This document shows, one piece after another, positions 16,006 through 24,270 of a stretch of 64,000 nucleotides of DNA; within the stretch, counting starts at the first letter, position 1, and the number at the start of each line of letters is the position of its first letter. Source of the stretch: Methanoculleus formosensis (GTDB taxonomy: Archaea > Halobacteriota > Methanomicrobia > Methanomicrobiales > Methanoculleaceae); assembly GCF_025384765.1 (NCBI RefSeq), contig NZ_VHLL01000001.1:558001-622000 (forward strand). Reading direction: 5' to 3'. The notes beneath the pieces were generated by a model. It was given only the letters and a program-made list of their open reading frames with translations, had not been told where the DNA came from and searched no databases. A program made the translations under genes and the position numbers.

Positions 16006-16770
16006 TCAAACCCCCGGGCGGAGATACTCCACCTTCATCCCCGCTCCGAAGATCCTCTGGTTCTCCGCCCCCCTGATGATCCTCTTCGCGAGTGCAGCAT
16101 CGGTTGCGATAAATCCCGAGAGATCGGAGACGCCGTAGTCGAAGAAGACCGAAGAGAGGGGAGTCCCCGGGCCCACGATCGTCACGCTCTCTGCGTTCTC
16201 CGAGAGTTCGAGGAGCCGCGGCATACTTTTGTCGCCGAGAGCGCCACAGGTCAGGAAGACATAATCGGACTCCGGCAGCAGGTACTCGCAGGCAGAGTAA
16301 GGGTAATCTCCCTCCTCGGGGTCCCACTCAATGATGCTCAGGTCGGAGACGGGGGCGATCAACTTCTCAAGGAACGGGAAATGACCGACAACACAGACTT
16401 TCTTCCCCTTCACAAGATTCTGGGACTTGATGAACGGGTCTTTCAGCCGTTCTTCGACCCGTTTCTTCTCTGCAACCTCGATCCCCGCCCTCCTGGCGGT
16501 CTCCGGGTGATTGTACCACGCGTTGATCGCCGCGTTGCCGATCGATGCCTCCCAGAAGTTCCAGGACTTCACACACCCCGCCACCTCTTTCAACGGTTTC
16601 CCGATCCTGTTCTCAGTCATCATCGGGGCGCGCTGGATATAATAACGGTATCCGGCGATACCGATGCCGCCGTTTGCCTCGACATACGTCAGTTCCCCGC
16701 CCAGGACCATATCTTCAACGACAATGTCGTCGGGGATCCCTTCGATTAACGCATCGTATAATTCCCACAT
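16006..16770 (-). CDS. DUF364-type putative heavy-metal-chelation protein
   Basis: 254-aa soluble protein. The N-terminal part resembles DUF4213 and the C-terminal part DUF364, with a Rossmann-like segment KVCVVGHFPFLEKL, EWDPEEGDYPYSACEYLLPESDYVFLT and a late TIVGPGTPLSSVFFDYGV. Pfam describes the family as a putative heavy-metal chelation domain. It begins 1 bp after the stop of the ABC ATPase gene, and the GTPase is immediately upstream of that. The three genes lie just downstream of the mtr operon. A role in handling a metal cofactor (cobalt, nickel or corrinoid) is an inference. Confidence 0.75.
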   Translation of the reverse strand: MWELYDALIEGIPDDIVVEDMVLGGELTYVEANGGIGIAGYRYYIQRAPMMTENRIGKPLKEVAGCVKSWNFWEASIGNAAINAWYNHPETARRAGIEVAEKKRVEERLKDPFIKSQNLVKGKKVCVVGHFPFLEKLIAPVSDLSIIEWDPEEGDYPYSACEYLLPESDYVFLTCGALGDKSMPRLLELSENAESVTIVGPGTPLSSVFFDYGVSDLSGFIATDAALAKRIIRGAENQRIFGAGMKVEYLRPGV

Positions 16771-16771
16771 A

Positions 16772-17806
16772 CTATCTCTCCTGAAATTCCGGAATGCTCT
16801 CTTCCGTAACGATCTCTCCTCTCCGGAGCTGGTTGCGGATATTGAGGAGGGCAGAATCGATCGCCTCGATCTTATGCAGCGTCTGCTCCTCTTCTGCGGT
16901 CGTCTCGATCACTTTTGCCACGCCTCCATTCTTGATGACGATCCTTTTATCGGCACGGAGGGCAAGAAGCGGGTCGTGCGTTGACATGAGGACGATCTTC
17001 TCGTTGCCGACGAGGATCTCGATCGCCTCCCGCCGGTCGATTCCTGCATTCTCCAGCTCGTCGATGAGGATGATCGGGGATGAACTCAAGAGAGCGGTGT
17101 CGGCGATCATCAGCGACCGCGACTGCCCCCCGGAGAGCTGGGTGACTTTCGTATCGAGCGTGAACTTCTCCCCTGCCAGCGAATTGGCAACCGCAAAACA
17201 CTTCTCCACAACCGCGGCAGAGTCCGGGATCATCCGGCTTTTCGCATGCATCTCCAGAAATTCCTGCACCGTCAGGTCCATGACGAAGTTCATGTTCTGC
17301 GAGAGCTGGGCTACCAGCTTCCCCCCGGTGGAGAACCTCTTATCGAGATCCGGGACTGACCCGTTGATGAGGATCTGTCGTGCAGTCGGGGTGTCGCGCT
17401 GGGCAAGACATTCGATATCCTCAAGCAACCTGCTCTTTCCCGAGCCGGTGGGACCGACTATGCTCACGACCTCGCCGGGTGTCACCGTCAGTTCGAGCAT
17501 CTCGGGCCTCCCCGTCTTGTCCCGTCCGCCGAGGATCGTGATGGAGGAGATCGTCTCGATAGATTCCTCCATTCGGGTGAACGCTTCAAGAAATGCGCTG
17601 AAGTGGAATATGACCTCCTCGCGGTCAAGCCCGAACTCCTCAAGCATATCCTCATCGACGTCTTCCAGGATCTCAGGGAGCGTCTTTGTCTCATCAACCC
17701 CGACCAGCCGTATGTTGGCGAGGTAATCGACCGCAAGAGGGTAACGGCGAAGGATATCGCCGATAGGCACCGACGAGACCTCTGCAACATAGTCAGGGGC
17801 TTTCAT
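16772..17806 (-). CDS. Soluble ABC ATPase with N-terminal ScdA_N/DUF1858-like domain
   Basis: 344 aa with no membrane partner nearby. Residues about 12-75 (VPIGDILRRYPLAVDYL, KTLPEILEDVDEDMLEEFGL) resemble the ScdA_N/DUF1858 helical domain but lack its CC pair. The ATPase follows: Walker A GPTGSGKSRLL at about 118, signature LSGGQSRSLMIAD, Walker B IILIDELENAG, H-loop MSTHDPLLAL. I chose ATG 17806, which overlaps the GTPase end by 14 bp. It is probably a non-transport ABC protein that acts with the GTPase and DUF364 protein on a metal cofactor or protein assembly step. Confidence 0.75.
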   Translation of the reverse strand: MKAPDYVAEVSSVPIGDILRRYPLAVDYLANIRLVGVDETKTLPEILEDVDEDMLEEFGLDREEVIFHFSAFLEAFTRMEESIETISSITILGGRDKTGRPEMLELTVTPGEVVSIVGPTGSGKSRLLEDIECLAQRDTPTARQILINGSVPDLDKRFSTGGKLVAQLSQNMNFVMDLTVQEFLEMHAKSRMIPDSAAVVEKCFAVANSLAGEKFTLDTKVTQLSGGQSRSLMIADTALLSSSPIILIDELENAGIDRREAIEILVGNEKIVLMSTHDPLLALRADKRIVIKNGGVAKVIETTAEEEQTLHKIEAIDSALLNIRNQLRRGEIVTEESIPEFQER

Positions 17807-18491
17807 CGTCAAACTCCATCCTTTTGACCATCCCCATCTGGTACATCTCTCCGATGAGGGTCTCGCCGGTGCAGTAGGAACAGATGGCGGCAGGCATCGT
17901 GAACCTGAGTTTACGGTCGCGAAGTGTCCGGATATCCAGTGTATCCTGCCAGTGGCGGGCAAGCATAAACGCTCCCTGGCCGGTGATCCCGTTCACGAAG
18001 AGAACCGTTGCCGATGCATTCACCTCACGGATGTTGAAGGCGAAGACCTCGCGCTCCGCCTGGGAGACCACATCCCCTTTCGTGACAACGACGATATCGG
18101 CATACTTCAGCATCGGGCCGATCTTCCGCGGGGTGTTGATGCCGGAGAGGTTGTCGATGACACAGACCGATAAGATGCCGTTCACGTAGGGCGAGCACCG
18201 GTTGCAGAGCCCTGCGCTCTCCGTGACGAGAACCGACAACCCCTTCTTCATGCCCCATTCGACCGCCCCTTCGACGTTGCTGACGAAATGGTGGTCCGGA
18301 CAGATCTTTCCGGCAAAAGCAGTCTGGTTGGGTATCTTCTGTTCATCGTAGCGCTGGTGGTCGAAGGAGGTGAGCGAGTCGAACTTCACGACGCCCACGC
18401 TCCCCGGGGGCAGCCCGAGAGCTGCGATGGTTTTGAGGATAACAGAGGTCTTCCCCGAAGATGGGGGGCCTGCAACGGTAATCAGCTTCAT
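17793..18491 (-). CDS. HypB/UreG/CobW-like GTPase
   Basis: 232 aa. Walker A GPPSSGKTSV near the N-terminus, a mid-chain TESAGLCNRCSPYVNG with a CxxC pair, VVVTKGDVVSQAE at the G4 position (TKGD rather than NKxD), and a C-terminal ICSYCTGETLIGEMYQMG with another CxxC. This pattern fits SIMIBI-class metallochaperone GTPases. It is the first gene of the three-gene unit with the soluble ABC ATPase and DUF364 protein. The client is unknown; its place beside mtr suggests corrinoid/cobalt, but nickel cannot be excluded. Confidence 0.75.
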   Translation of the reverse strand: MKLITVAGPPSSGKTSVILKTIAALGLPPGSVGVVKFDSLTSFDHQRYDEQKIPNQTAFAGKICPDHHFVSNVEGAVEWGMKKGLSVLVTESAGLCNRCSPYVNGILSVCVIDNLSGINTPRKIGPMLKYADIVVVTKGDVVSQAEREVFAFNIREVNASATVLFVNGITGQGAFMLARHWQDTLDIRTLRDRKLRFTMPAAICSYCTGETLIGEMYQMGMVKRMEFDDESP

Positions 18492-18635: not shown

Positions 18636-19673
18636 TTAGATGAGTTTGAAGAACGGGTGGTTCTCGGTCTTGGGCTCGATTCCCAGATCGCGCACCGCTT
18701 CCAGCACGACGATATCCACGTAGGCCTGTGCGGTGATCATCGCCTCGACGTTCTCGATCGGGCCGTACATGATCAGGTCGGCGCCGAGCGTGCTTGCAAT
18801 CATGTTGCAGCCGATATCGGGTGCAGACCAGGCCGCCTGGCGCATACCGTCCGTACCACCGAGGTAGTGGTGGGTGAGCTGCTCGACGAGGGCATCCTTG
18901 CCTTCGAGACCGGCCAGCTGCTGCGAGGGAGTCTTCTTCGTTCCCTTCCAGCGCTTGAGCCAGGTCCAGGAGACCGTCATGTTGTGGTACGCGCCGCCGG
19001 TGGGGAGACCGTGGATCGCCTTGCAGGCGAGGATCTCACGGTACGAGCCGCCGGAGCCGAGACCGAGCGGGGTTGCCGCGGTGTCAAGGATCGGGCGGGT
19101 GATACCACATTTCTCCGCGATCTCGAGCATCCCGAGTTCCTGTCCGGCAACGCCGCCCTCGACCAGGACCTTCTCACGGCCGGCAACCGACGGGTCGCCG
19201 GGGTTGAAAGCGAGGACGATGGCTGCGTTCACATCGCTCTTGGCGAGAGCCTCGATGTTCTCGGGCAGGATCGAGCCGTTGATCGAGTTGTAGATCGCGC
19301 GGTCCGCGATGCCGGCCTCGGTGACGTATTTGCACGCGTGTGCCAGCGCCGTCGGGACGGATGAGTCCATCAGGAATGCGGTCTTGTCGTCGATGCTGCA
19401 GAACCAGTCGATGTAGCTCTCGAAGGCCTCAGGGAACTCCGCGATGATCTGGATGAAGTGCGGAATGCCCGTGATATCCGAGAGTTCCTGGCAGCGGTTC
19501 CAGAGCCCTTCTGCTTTTATCTTGTCGATCTTTCCAGTGTGGTCATCCAGAACAACCTCGTGCTTGTTGTAGAAGATGGATGCACCGAGCACGGACGGGT
19601 ATTCTCCAGGCTGCCCGCCGATCATGGTACCGTTGAAGTCGTGTACCGTCTGCTCTTTTTCGAACTTGAACAT
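18636..19673 (-). CDS. mtrH: Tetrahydromethanopterin S-methyltransferase subunit H
   Basis: 345 aa. MtrH is the peripheral subunit that transfers the methyl group from methyl-tetrahydromethanopterin to the Co(I) corrinoid of MtrA. It is recognised from MFKFEKEQTVHDFNGTMIGG at the N-terminus, and from NAAIVLAFNPGDPSV and LDTAATPLGLGSGGSYREI. I chose ATG 19673, preceded by aaaggaggt. It is the last gene of the mtr operon and overlaps no neighbour; its SD lies at the end of the MtrA-MtrG fusion gene. Confidence 0.95.
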   Translation of the reverse strand: MFKFEKEQTVHDFNGTMIGGQPGEYPSVLGASIFYNKHEVVLDDHTGKIDKIKAEGLWNRCQELSDITGIPHFIQIIAEFPEAFESYIDWFCSIDDKTAFLMDSSVPTALAHACKYVTEAGIADRAIYNSINGSILPENIEALAKSDVNAAIVLAFNPGDPSVAGREKVLVEGGVAGQELGMLEIAEKCGITRPILDTAATPLGLGSGGSYREILACKAIHGLPTGGAYHNMTVSWTWLKRWKGTKKTPSQQLAGLEGKDALVEQLTHHYLGGTDGMRQAAWSAPDIGCNMIASTLGADLIMYGPIENVEAMITAQAYVDIVVLEAVRDLGIEPKTENHPFFKLI

Positions 19674-19689
19674 ATTCGCCAAACCTCCT

Positions 19690-20427
19690 TTACAGGTACC
19701 CAACCAATTTGGGCAGTAATACCAACAACATCATGAATACAATCAAACCTGCGACCAGTCCATACAGGATGCCGATATCGCGCCCGACTTTCCTTCCGAC
19801 GCGCTGGGCGATCTCTGCATCGACGAACTCGATCCTCTCCTCGATGGCGTTGAGCCGTTCTTCGATCTCAAGGAACTGCGGGTTTGCTCCTGCGACGGCA
19901 ACTTCCGCCGCACCGTCCCCTTCTTTGACCTCGACGACCATGGGCTCTGCGCCGAACGCACCGGGGTCTTTGGCCTTGAGTTCATCGATCTTGGCCTTGA
20001 TGGTGCCCATGTCCTCGCTTTCCATGATGTTGACCATCTCGACCTGGTCCTGGAAGCGCTTGATGGCTTCGTCGGAGAGGTTCTCGATGAACGCGATGGC
20101 TCCCTGGGCGCCGACGATCTTCCCGCCGGCGACGCCGCCTTCGTGCAGAGCCATGAAGCTCTGTCCGGAGAGGTGGCCCTTGACCTCCGTTCCGCAACAG
20201 AGGATGAACCTGATGTTGGGGTTGGAGATGACGTTCGCGATGATCTTCTCAAGGCCGAGGTTCTCGGTCTTACAGGACCCGGCGATTGCCGCTCCGGCAT
20301 CGCAGATGCCCTGCTCGTCGAGGTGGGATCCCATGGTGACGACAGCGACGCAACTCTGTGCATCTCCCGTGTGGAAGTCGCCCTGAATAATCGGCCATCC
20401 GCTGGCCGGTGATTTCTTCTCAGCCAT
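19690..20427 (-). CDS. mtrG: MtrA-MtrG fusion: second copy of the MtrA corrinoid domain joined to MtrG
   Basis: 245 aa. Residues 1 to about 168 are the MtrA cytoplasmic corrinoid domain, identical to the MtrA at 20644-21369 apart from residue 2; the corrinoid-site segment [18 protein letters not shown] (His85) is retained. After a short linker, residues about 183-245 are Mtr[36 protein letters not shown] and a membrane helix. It sits where mtrG lies in the canonical mtrEDCBAFGH order, and no separate mtrG is present. About 500 bp are nearly identical to mtrA, pointing to recent duplication or gene conversion. The complex may carry two corrinoid domains per protomer set. Confidence 0.9.
19925..20427 (-). 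repeat. 503-bp duplicated mtrA segment, copy in the mtrG fusion
   Basis: Aligned with 20867-21369 at a constant offset of 942 bp. By eye only two base differences are seen (at 19946 region c/t and 20423 g/a on the plus strand). Identity stops abruptly at the linker to the MtrG part. Confidence 0.9.
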
Positions 20428-20428
20428 G

Positions 20429-20638
20429 TTAGATCGCCCCCACCATCAGTGCCGGGACCACGATCAGGAGTAAGACTACAAGGAGTCCGATTGTGAACCC
20501 GACGATTCCCTTGCCCATGATACCGGATTCGAGTTTGGTCGTGCGGGCAAGGATCTGTGCCTTGTACCGGATGGAGCTCATCATGCCGTTGATTGCCGTC
20601 ATCCGGATGGGGCCTGCCTGTGTAACTTCTTCTGCCAT
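20429..20638 (-). CDS. mtrF: Tetrahydromethanopterin S-methyltransferase subunit F
   Basis: 69-aa single-span membrane subunit. The family pattern is visible: [33 protein letters not shown] and a C-terminal helix [19 protein letters not shown]. It lies in canonical position between mtrA and the mtrG-type gene, with gaps of 5 bp and 1 bp. Confidence 0.92.
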
Positions 20639-20643
20639 TTATC

Positions 20644-21369
20644 TCACCCCAGCAGGATGAACCCCAGAATCACGAACGAGACGATCAGGCCGATCATGAG
20701 GCCCTCAATCTTGCCCGAGTAGACGCCGGCGGCAAACTTGTTACGGTACCCGATGTCGGTGACCATCCGCTCGATGATCTTCATCCGTGCGTGTATCAGT
20801 GCCAGTTCACCGGAGAGCGGCTGTACTTCACCAGTCGCTTCCTCTGCGCCGGCACCGTCCTCTTCCTTGACCTCGACGACCATGGGTTCTGCGCCGAACG
20901 CACCGGGGTCTTTGGCCTTGAGTTCATCGATCTTGGCCTTGATGGTGCCCATGTCCTCGCTTTCCATGATGTTGACCATCTCGACCTGGTCCTGGAAGCG
21001 CTTGATGGCTTCGTCGGAGAGGTTCTCGATGAACGCGATGGCTCCCTGGGCGCCGACGATCTTCCCGCCGGCGACGCCGCCTTCGTGCAGAGCCATGAAG
21101 CTCTGTCCGGAGAGGTGGCCCTTGACCTCCGTTCCGCAACAGAGGATGAACCTGATGTTGGGGTTGGAGATGACGTTCGCGATGATCTTCTCAAGGCCGA
21201 GGTTCTCGGTCTTACAGGACCCGGCGATTGCCGCTCCGGCATCGCAGATGCCCTGCTCGTCGAGGTGGGATCCCATGGTGACGACAGCGACGCAACTCTG
21301 TGCATCTCCCGTGTGGAAGTCGCCCTGAATAATCGGCCATCCGCTGGCCGGTGATTTCTTCTCAACCAT
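20644..21369 (-). CDS. mtrA: Tetrahydromethanopterin S-methyltransferase subunit A (corrinoid protein)
   Basis: 241 aa. MtrA carries the corrinoid that shuttles the methyl group between MtrH and coenzyme M. The cytoplasmic domain holds [20 protein letters not shown], with the His of the cobalt site region. The tail has a coiled segment ([25 protein letters not shown]) and one membrane helix. I chose ATG 21369, with gaggtg about 6 bp upstream, over a GTG at 21378. Its first 500 bp are almost identical to the downstream MtrA-MtrG fusion gene. Confidence 0.95.
20867..21369 (-). repeat. 503-bp duplicated mtrA segment, copy in mtrA itself
   Basis: Partner of 19925-20427. The identity includes the start codon and synonymous sites, which argues for recent conversion rather than protein-level selection. 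Confidence 0.9.
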
Positions 21370-21379
21370 GTTCTTCACC

Positions 21380-21664
21380 TCACAGCAGTCCTAATACGAC
21401 GACACCGGCAATCAGAAGGCCGACTGCCATGCCATACCAGAATGCGGTCACGCCTCCGGCGGTGTTGAGAACACCCTCCCTGTTCGGGAATGATGCCAGG
21501 AAGTTGCCCTCTCCGGAGAGCATACCGACCAGGTCGTCGGTGATCTTCTCGAGTTCCGCTACCTGTTCGAGCACGGGGGTGTAGGAGACACCGGCAGTGG
21601 TGACGATTCCGACCATCGGGTCGACAACCAGGCCGTACTCGGGCAGCACCTGAATGTACGCCAT
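21380..21664 (-). CDS. mtrB: Tetrahydromethanopterin S-methyltransferase subunit B
   Basis: 94 aa with one C-terminal membrane helix ([19 protein letters not shown]). The N-terminal [19 protein letters not shown] is characteristic of MtrB. It directly abuts mtrC upstream (0 bp) and mtrA downstream. Confidence 0.93.
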
Positions 21665-22516
21665 TTAGGCACCTCCCTTGGGCTCAAGGATCGGCTGTGC
21701 GTCGAGCCATGCGTAGGCGTCACGCTGCGAGAGCTCGATGTACTTCTTGTAGGTGTAGAGCCACCCGACGATCGAGACCACCAGTGAGATGAGAGCGGCA
21801 TACATGCCGATGAACGCGAACGAGATGATCGCGATGGGGATCATCGAGAGGAACCCGCACTCCGCGGCGAGCATGAGCGTCCTGTCCTGCTGCTCCCCCG
21901 GCCCGAGACAGGCGTTGAAGGAGTGCTGGATGGCGATAGCGCCGAGCATGAAGATCACGGCGATGATGCTGCCGCCGATGAGCGAGAACTCGTAGCTCTG
22001 CACGATGAATCCGAGGATCGCGATCTCGCCGGTGATCATGCCGAGGAACTCAAACGTTCCGCAGGCCATCGCCGAGAGACCGAGAATGGTCATTGCGCCG
22101 ACGATCGCGAGTTCGATCAGCGAGACGACCATGACGGGGATGTCCATCCGGACAACGGCGTTCGCCATCAGTCCGGCGACCGCGCCGATGATTGCGGCGA
22201 TGATGATCGTCACGATGGGTGCGAAGGGGCCGGTCGTGGCTCCGAAGAGCGCAGCAACGACACCGGACCCGAGGGCGATCATACCTGCCGACGGGACACC
22301 GGTACCGAGACCGTAGCTGCAGAGGTGCTTGATCGTGTCGGTGCCCCAGAGGAGCGCGACTACGGCGGCAAGCCCACCGAAGAACGAGAAGTACTCGGTG
22401 CCGGTGATAGTGTTCAGGTATGTCAGGTAAATCAGGACGAGCGATCCCACGAGGCCGTAGATCAGGATCTGGTTGTGCGGGATGCCGCCTGCTCCGACTT
22501 CAACTTTTACTGACAT
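21665..22516 (-). CDS. mtrC: Tetrahydromethanopterin S-methyltransferase subunit C
   Basis: 283-aa integral membrane subunit of the sodium-pumping methyltransferase complex. It has multiple helices, including the MtrC segments HNQILIYGLVGSLVLIYLTYL, GTDTIKHLCSYGLGTGVPS and HSFNACLGPGEQQDRT. Methyl transfer to coenzyme M is coupled to Na+ export by MtrC, D and E. It abuts mtrD and mtrB without gaps. Confidence 0.94.
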   Translation of the reverse strand: MSVKVEVGAGGIPHNQILIYGLVGSLVLIYLTYLNTITGTEYFSFFGGLAAVVALLWGTDTIKHLCSYGLGTGVPSAGMIALGSGVVAALFGATTGPFAPIVTIIIAAIIGAVAGLMANAVVRMDIPVMVVSLIELAIVGAMTILGLSAMACGTFEFLGMITGEIAILGFIVQSYEFSLIGGSIIAVIFMLGAIAIQHSFNACLGPGEQQDRTLMLAAECGFLSMIPIAIISFAFIGMYAALISLVVSIVGWLYTYKKYIELSQRDAYAWLDAQPILEPKGGA

Positions 22517-23368
22517 TTAGAATACCCCCACCAGTTGGAGGAGCCCGATCGCGAAGATGCCGGTAACGGCGGATGCCACGGCGGCTGCGATGATCGCTCT
22601 CGGGAACCGCTTGAACTTGGGGTCGTGCGGCCCTTCGATCGTACCGGTGATGTTGTATGCCGCAAGCACGGCGTTCACGAGGAACATACCGACCGCGAAG
22701 ATGCCGGCAAGCGAGACGGCGACGGGCGCGATCTGCTCGACCGTGGCGTTCAGGATCACCGGGAGCTGCGCCTGGTAAACGTCGAGAAGCTGGAGGTAGA
22801 TGAGCGTTCCCCCAAGACCTCCGAGTGCGCCGCCGATGACGCCGCCGACCCAGGAGATGAACGGGAGGCCGTGCCCCTCGGTACCCTGGCTCTTGAACTC
22901 GGGGAAGGTGTCGCCCGTGATGGGGTCTTTATCGACCTTACCGGAGGCTGCCGGGATACCCATGCCGAAGACGTAGATGACGTTGACCATCGTACAGGTG
23001 ATCGCCATCAGGAGACCGCCGCCGATCGCACCGCCCGCAAGGGCGACGCCGAATCCAAGCGGGGCGGCCCATGCGCCACCGAAGAGACCGGCAAGGCCGG
23101 CACCGGCCGCAAGCATCGCAACACCGGTCGCGATACCGGGTGCCTGTCCCATTGCAGCGGGAGCACCGCCGACCGGGACGAAGTGAACGCCGAACGCGAT
23201 CAGGACGCCGCCGATGATGATGCCGACGAGCGCGATCAGTCCGGCCATCTGTACGAGTAAGTAAGCGAGCGCAAGCGCTGCTACGATAAGAACGATACCG
23301 ATGACGAGGCCCATTGCCGTCGGGGGTTGGATGCCTCCAGTCTGTTTAGGTCCGCCGAGTGCGCTCAT
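22517..23368 (-). CDS. mtrD: Tetrahydromethanopterin S-methyltransferase subunit D
   Basis: 283-aa polytopic membrane subunit. Family landmarks are ITCTMVNVIYVFGMGIPAASG, DPITGDTFPEFKSQGTEGHG and LPFISWVGGVIGGALGGLGG. It overlaps the mtrE stop by 4 bp and abuts mtrC. Confidence 0.94.
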   Translation of the reverse strand: MSALGGPKQTGGIQPPTAMGLVIGIVLIVAALALAYLLVQMAGLIALVGIIIGGVLIAFGVHFVPVGGAPAAMGQAPGIATGVAMLAAGAGLAGLFGGAWAAPLGFGVALAGGAIGGGLLMAITCTMVNVIYVFGMGIPAASGKVDKDPITGDTFPEFKSQGTEGHGLPFISWVGGVIGGALGGLGGTLIYLQLLDVYQAQLPVILNATVEQIAPVAVSLAGIFAVGMFLVNAVLAAYNITGTIEGPHDPKFKRFPRAIIAAAVASAVTGIFAIGLLQLVGVF

Positions 23369-24270
23369 GACGATGCCTCCTCAGTAGCCTCGGGAGCCGT
23401 GTAGGGCCCGAAGTTCTTCCTTGCCCAGACCTCGATGTAGCGGTCGATGATGGCAAAGACCAGGATGACGACGACACCGACGACGATCGGTCCCCAGATG
23501 TTGAACTCTTCGAAGACCACGGTACGCCAGAGTTCGAAGAAGACGATCAGGCCAAAGCAGATGCCCGAGGCGGGGCCGCCGAGTTTGGCGCTGAAGAAAC
23601 CGTTGTCGAGCGAGTTCCGCTGGCCGGCCTCGGCGTAGCGGACGATGTTACCGGACGCGGAGATCGGAACGCCTGCTCCGAACTTCTGCTCCTGGTACTG
23701 CCGCTCCTTTCCGTAGAACGGGTTACCGGTCGCAGACCCGGCCGCACCGAGCGCGATACCCCAGACGATACCCAGAAGCGGGAGCGGGAAGGGGTGGCCG
23801 AGCGCGCTGATCATAAGGTGACACATCGCGACGGTGGCGAAGATTGCTATGAACGCGTGTGCCATGGTCACGGTCGTCATCGACTTCAAGATGTCAATGT
23901 AGACCGGCTGTCCGAACTTGGCGAGACTTGCAGTACGGCCGAGGTATGCGGTAGTCGCATAGATGCCCTGCACGAAGACCGCGAGAGCACTCCCGAGCAC
24001 GATTGCAAGTATCGGGTTTATCTGCATCGCCATGAAAGCCCAGGCAAGGCCTGCGCCCAGAGCAACCCAGAGGCCGTACGCGGGAGGTTCACCAGCAATT
24101 GCCTTGTTGAATATGCGGTGAATATATCCCATCTGTGGAGCCAGCTGAACCTGTGAGTTCGGGTCACCCTGTGATCCGATGTCAGATTCAACGTCTTCCG
24201 CAGCGCCGGCGACGGTTGCGAGAGCACCTGCCAATGCGGTAATGCCGATGCCAAATACGATCTCTTCCAT
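23365..24270 (-). CDS. mtrE: Tetrahydromethanopterin S-methyltransferase subunit E
   Basis: 301-aa polytopic membrane subunit and first gene of the mtr operon. It has the soluble-loop signatures DIGSQGDPNSQVQLAPQMGY, NPFYGKERQYQEQKFGAGVP and AEAGQRNSLDNGFFSAKLGG. With MtrC and MtrD it forms the Na+-conducting membrane part. The SD ggaggagg lies 9 bp upstream and is partly inside a perfect hairpin (24282-24304). Confidence 0.95.
   Translation of the reverse strand: MEEIVFGIGITALAGALATVAGAAEDVESDIGSQGDPNSQVQLAPQMGYIHRIFNKAIAGEPPAYGLWVALGAGLAWAFMAMQINPILAIVLGSALAVFVQGIYATTAYLGRTASLAKFGQPVYIDILKSMTTVTMAHAFIAIFATVAMCHLMISALGHPFPLPLLGIVWGIALGAAGSATGNPFYGKERQYQEQKFGAGVPISASGNIVRYAEAGQRNSLDNGFFSAKLGGPASGICFGLIVFFELWRTVVFEEFNIWGPIVVGVVVILVFAIIDRYIEVWARKNFGPYTAPEATEEASS

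Follow-up and report, generated by a model that had tools for sequence, protein, structure and literature searches.

Near-identity of the corrinoid domains of mtrA and an mtrA-mtrG fusion in Methanoculleus formosensis points to gene conversion that appears to have lapsed in other Methanomicrobiales

Wang et al. (2015, G3; PMC4632066) described a gene pair of the Methanomicrobiales, mtrA-1 and mtrA-2b, and attributed it to an ancient duplication followed by recurrent gene conversion, with a mean identity of 92.4% between paralogs and 73.7% between orthologs. Their figure covers eight Methanomicrobiales from six genera, two Methanoculleus species included, and Methanospirillum hungatei is among the organisms in the study. 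A 2018 survey of recurrent concerted evolution in prokaryotes (PMC6053082) reports tuf, amoCAB, mtrA and others, 26 genes in all. At the protein level, the hallmarks of MtrA are the cobalt-ligating His84, its partner Glu54 and a conserved meander loop (PMC4915002), and the MtrA anchor and the MtrG helices form part of the central stalk, with their N-termini in the cytoplasm (PMC10998594). The gene pair that we analyze here, and its long-lasting gene conversion, are already known from the work of Wang et al. (PMC4632066). The locus lies in a stretch of 64,000 nucleotides from M. formosensis, the whole of which we refer to as the window.

The mtr cluster of the window runs on the minus strand from 24270 to 18636 in the order mtrE-mtrD-mtrC-mtrB-mtrA-mtrF-(mtrA-mtrG)-mtrH. 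Pfam and NCBIfam profiles identify mtrE (23365-24270), mtrD (22517-23368), mtrC (21665-22516) and mtrB (21380-21664), all on that strand, and agree with the names that an earlier note on this DNA had given to mtrA, mtrF and the mtrA-mtrG fusion. The first mtrA (mtrA-1; 20644-21378, minus strand; PF04208, 2.8e-84; TIGR01111, 9.2e-102) encodes a corrinoid domain with its own C-terminal membrane anchor, and its product aligns over its full length with the MtrA chains 9qtq_A and 8q3v_A of the PDB. An unfused mtrF (20429-20638, minus strand; PF09472, 2.3e-19) separates it from the fusion (19690-20427, minus strand), the mtrA-2b of Wang et al., in which a PF04208 domain (residues 4-173; 3.2e-84) and a PF04210 MtrG domain (residues 183-236; 7.1e-23) share one reading frame. 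The fusion joins a second corrinoid domain to the MtrG stalk helix and does not have the mtrA anchor. Its product matches MtrA chains in the PDB and, at its C-terminus, MtrG chains; no chain of the fused form was present among these matches. The cluster closes with mtrH (18636-19703, minus strand; TIGR01114, 5.7e-109), and mcrC-, mcrG- and mcrA-like genes adjoin it at 27582-24465. Downstream of mtrH, at 16006-18491 on the minus strand, are three genes that might, as a guess, form a metal or cofactor insertion set: a GTPase with a CobW/HypB/UreG domain (17793-18491), an ABC-type ATPase (16772-17962) and a DUF364/DUF4213 protein annotated as a putative heavy-metal chelation protein (16006-16770). 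A search of the source genome for a third mtrA returned these two copies alone.

The two corrinoid domains are nearly the same at the DNA level. Sequence comparison bore out the 942-bp spacing of the copies that the earlier note had given, and its 503-bp segments (19925-20427 and 20867-21369) carry exactly two differences, at 19945 and 20423. The homology is slightly longer, extending over 521 bp on the minus strand (20852-21372 in mtrA and 19910-20430 in the fusion) with four differences, at 19919, 19924, 19945 and 20423, all of them near the ends of the block. The copies are identical without interruption for 477 bp (19946-20422 and 20888-21364), a perfect match that cannot be due to chance within 64 kb. 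Just outside the 521-bp block the match ends, the flanking sequences being unrelated as had been noted. The encoded proteins differ at two residues of a 172-residue core (V2A and E170G), and the dS between the copies is 0.018.

We compared the locus across the order Methanomicrobiales, in which at least 190 of 232 genomes have a match among the matches listed. In total 81 genomes were read, namely the window and 80 regions hand-picked from the listed genus and order matches, and these listings favor high-scoring complete matches. Both copies were complete enough in 75 genomes, which yielded 150 copies compared over 516 sites; A1 denotes the first copy and A2 the second, fused copy. Six genomes were dropped because the stretch contained only part of one copy or none of it (G016, G033, G082, G167, G191 and G204), and G078 was retained with 504 of the 516 sites. 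Nineteen genomes with both copies complete belong to genus g1, the code for the window's own genus.

In every one of the 75 genomes the first copy carries the anchor and the second carries MtrG, and mtrF lies between them in the gene order A-F-A-G-H. The complete order from mtrE to mtrH was found in 71; in the other four, the stretches read showed no more of it on the upstream side. Nine loci from three genus codes outside the order were read as well, and all nine stretches contain one mtrA only, separated from mtrG by mtrF. In a phylum-wide search, many genomes of genus code g75, likewise outside the order, had two to five MtrA-domain matches. The shared architecture bears on the possibility that each species recently acquired its own tandem duplication, with a new mtrG fusion every time. 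Taken alone, the near-identity of the window's copies fits such an origin; however, the same fusion and the same unfused intervening mtrF in 75 of 75 genomes would require dozens of identical duplication-fusion events, and the mosaics and end-limited divergence described below match partial conversion and not new copies. Because fusion and intervening mtrF are common to all, recent duplication fails as a general cause, and we regard it as extremely unlikely. Of the two alternatives in the earlier note, recent duplication and continuing gene conversion, the latter stands.

We favor an old duplication followed by repeated gene conversion between the nearby mtrA copies, an explanation that is very probably correct. 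A duplication predating the divergence of the sampled Methanomicrobiales would have put a second MtrA corrinoid domain before mtrG, and homologous recombination (gene conversion) between the neighboring copies would repeatedly overwrite one with the other. The shared domain would in this way remain near-identical within a genome, with both copies changing together between species. Conversion tracts could not reach beyond the shared domain, and the membrane anchors would stay distinct for that reason.

This explanation was first assessed by comparing paralogs with orthologs, as the earlier note had proposed. In the window genome (G000), 4 of 516 sites (0.8%) distinguish the copies, and the nearest orthologs of the two copies are 6.2% and 6.8% away. 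Among the 19 genomes of genus g1 the mean paralog difference is 2.1%, compared to 9.3% for A1 orthologs and 10.1% for A2 orthologs. In 45 of the 75 genomes, and in 16 of the 19 in genus g1, the distance between the paralogs is smaller than that from either copy to its nearest ortholog. In a tree of the 150 copies, A1 and A2 are intermixed such that the copy label needs 57 changes, and 45 of the 75 paralog pairs are sisters. A single clade of all A2 copies was rejected both for the 75 genomes (p-AU 7e-51) and within genus g1 (p-AU 4e-4). The reverse outcome, orthologs closer than paralogs, which the earlier note had named as evidence against its reading, is absent in the window genome and present for at least one copy in other genomes. 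In 30 genomes the paralog is no closer than the nearest ortholog for one copy or both (for both in 28), and three of these genomes belong to genus g1 (G007, G012 and G031), indicating that conversion is not continuous everywhere. One of these three, G031 (locus L075), has an A1 that is 1.4% from that of G012, an A2 that is 6.2% from that of G009, and copies that are 8.1% apart; interspecies transfer of one copy or a mixed bin could account for its discordance.

Recombination as the physical agent would leave further traces, and several patterns in the alignments point to it. In homogenized lineages, substitutions that separate sister genomes sit in both copies at once. The window genome and its nearest relative, G003, have 28 sites with this concerted pattern and none with the orthologous pattern; the corresponding counts are 10 and 0 for G024 and G025, and 99 and 0 for G045 and G144. 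In the 46 genomes with paralogs less than 6% apart, the ratio of paralog to ortholog divergence is 0.26 over codons 1-10, about 0.04 over codons 91-110 and 0.37 over codons 161-170, with an ortholog baseline that controls only roughly for relaxed constraint at the ends. Identity that is highest in the middle of the domain and drops toward both ends is the pattern that recombination would leave if it were bounded by where homology stops. At third positions the ratio of end to middle divergence is 6.1 in the most homogenized class and still 1.5 in the least homogenized class, so part of the end effect could reflect relaxed constraint near the linker. G061 is a mosaic, with an identical run from nucleotide 12 to 303 followed by divergence (p 0.0005). 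Among 68 testable genomes, a permutation test on the longest run of identical third positions reached the 0.05 level in only 33, uncorrected for multiple testing.

We also considered GC-biased conversion and rejected it, having found no GC excess tied to conversion across four classes of homogenization. The third-position GC of the core minus that of mtrE, mtrD, mtrC and mtrH averaged +0.030, +0.014, +0.022 and +0.025 from the most to the least homogenized class. Absolute third-position GC was 0.74-0.77 in the most homogenized class (core 0.77) and 0.49-0.52 in the least (core about 0.51), a correlation that is not interpretable because the least homogenized class is confined to few clades and phylogeny confounds it.

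A near-identical repeat could also be produced by assembly, if a short-read consensus had been used for both copies, and the source of the window is a 19-contig draft. The repeat does break drafts. In eleven genomes of the genus, one copy or both match only in part; nine of these have contigs that end inside the repeat, and the first copy of the other two (G016 and G033) is interrupted by a run of N. The nine loci (L024-L032) are from G032, G028, G020, G013, G026, G022, G004, G021 and G018, and four of them end after 41-46 codons of the first copy. Such breaks are expected of short-read assembly, and they leave mtrA partial or missing. In G014 and G023, mtrE lies some 2 kb away from the start of the contig and mtrA has no match; by the spacing in the window, mtrA would begin right at that start. 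Assembly is thus the likely reason why mtrA is absent from drafts of the genus, at least for these two. G008, G015 and G027 have matches for neither mtrE nor mtrA and are uninformative on this point. However, four genomes of the genus that are listed with one contig (G001, G003, G006 and G010) have 8, 6, 1 and 6 differences in 516 sites, so high identity is not solely a draft effect, and the window itself retains four differences, all near the block ends. We therefore consider it very unlikely that the near-identity is an artefact. The practical consequence is that the repeat can make mtrA seem truncated or absent in drafts of the Methanoculleus group.

Homogenization appears to have slowed or lapsed in several genera, judging from alignments in which orthologs are closer than paralogs. 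Copies are at least 13% apart in 14 of the 75 genomes. In genus g36, orthologs are closer than paralogs in all nine genomes read, with a mean paralog difference of 18.6% and mean ortholog differences of 14.2% and 14.8%, and A1 and A2 lie on two sides of one branch, whose support (71/99) is not full. In all nine (L122-L127, L132, L133 and L135), residues 3, 5, 6, 24 and 159-161, positions near both ends of the domain, distinguish A1 from A2; residue 118 does so in eight and residue 131 in seven. A second lapsed group forms one clade in the tree (G102, G110, G111, G113, G114, G116, G118, G119 and G120) and has paralog differences of 9.5-20%, with paralogs still closer than orthologs in G102 and G113. 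Shallower lapses were found in g13 and in G193/G194. In lapsed pairs of sister genomes the site patterns are orthologous: G066 and G067 have 0 concerted and 30 orthologous sites, and G197 and G199 have 0 and 72.

The lapsed lineages also bear on whether selection alone, acting without recombination, keeps the two copies alike. Purifying selection does act on the proteins: in 18 diverged pairs, dN (0.02-0.11) is in every case far below dS (0.46-1.58). These pairs were chosen by hand and do not coincide fully with the 18 largest differences, the set omitting G059 (10.1%) and G063 (11.2%) yet taking in G102 (9.5%). The low dN relative to the high dS indicates that purifying selection on both copies persists without homogenization. 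Against selection as the sole cause, synonymous sites are near-equal too wherever copies are alike, with a dS of 0.018 in the window and median values in genus g1 of 0.055 for paralogs and 0.337 for A1 orthologs, whereas dS reaches the values above in the diverged pairs. The probability that selection alone is responsible is, in our judgment, close to nil. The diverged pairs also speak against a requirement for strict identity of both corrinoid domains, and they stay compatible with its usefulness. A tentative and rather doubtful extension of the gene conversion model is that homogenization is metastable: near-identity would sustain recombination, and past some divergence the copies would escape permanently and specialize on their two tethers. 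Lapsed and homogenized lineages can be compared to ask whether the identity of the domains is needed or is a by-product of recombination.

The cobalt-ligating His and its partner Glu are conserved throughout. Counted by eye in the alignment with chain 8q3v_A, H85 and E55 of the window's core correspond to H84 and E54 of that chain, and both are present in all 150 copies from the 75 genomes. The meander loop reads GAIAFIEN in the window and GAIPYIEN in 8q3v_A, departing at the proline. No difference between A1 and A2 was found around the cobalt ligand, the partner Glu or the meander loop in the 75 genomes, and a search across the order for residues that separate A1 from A2 returned no position at the threshold used, a shift in 20 of the 75 genomes. 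Functionally, the Mtr complex would then have two kinds of tether for its corrinoid domains, the anchor helix of MtrA and the stalk helix of MtrG. Since the N-termini of the MtrG helices are cytoplasmic, the fused second domain would be placed on the correct side of the membrane. MtrH would be the methyl donor for both tethered domains, which would also share one sodium-pumping membrane part, and a trimeric complex might hold up to six corrinoid domains compared to three. The pair offers a clean natural case of gene conversion confined to a domain shared by two proteins that otherwise differ and that belong to a central energy-conserving enzyme.

Compared with described systems, the window pair is like mtrA-1/mtrA-2b (PMC4632066) in its genes, the mtrA-mtrG fusion, the operon position and the conclusion drawn: the second mtrA lies downstream of mtrF and is fused to mtrG, paralogs are closer than orthologs, and separate clades of the two copies are rejected. 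In the accessible parts of the published accounts of the pair (PMC4632066 and PMC6053082) we found neither the lapses with both copies under purifying selection nor the end profile of identity and the breakage of drafts by the repeat. As presented there, the 2018 survey counts the mtrA of Methanomicrobiales and Methanococcales among its 26 genes and stays at survey level, without tract ends or lapses for mtrA (PMC6053082). The cryo-EM structures of the Mtr complex (PMC10998594 and PMC12774963) contain the same subunits as the cluster in the window, with MtrA and MtrG as separate chains, whereas the window has the fusion. The mtrA-1/mtrA-2a pair of the Methanococcales (PMC4632066) likewise has a duplicated corrinoid domain that is fused to an Mtr stalk subunit and homogenized; however, its fusion partner is mtrF and not mtrG, and an independent origin is reported. 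Finally, in the account of Wang et al. the mtrA-1 and mtrA-2b paralogs of a species cluster together (PMC4632066), whereas the 75 genomes compared here include several genera in which orthologs are closer.
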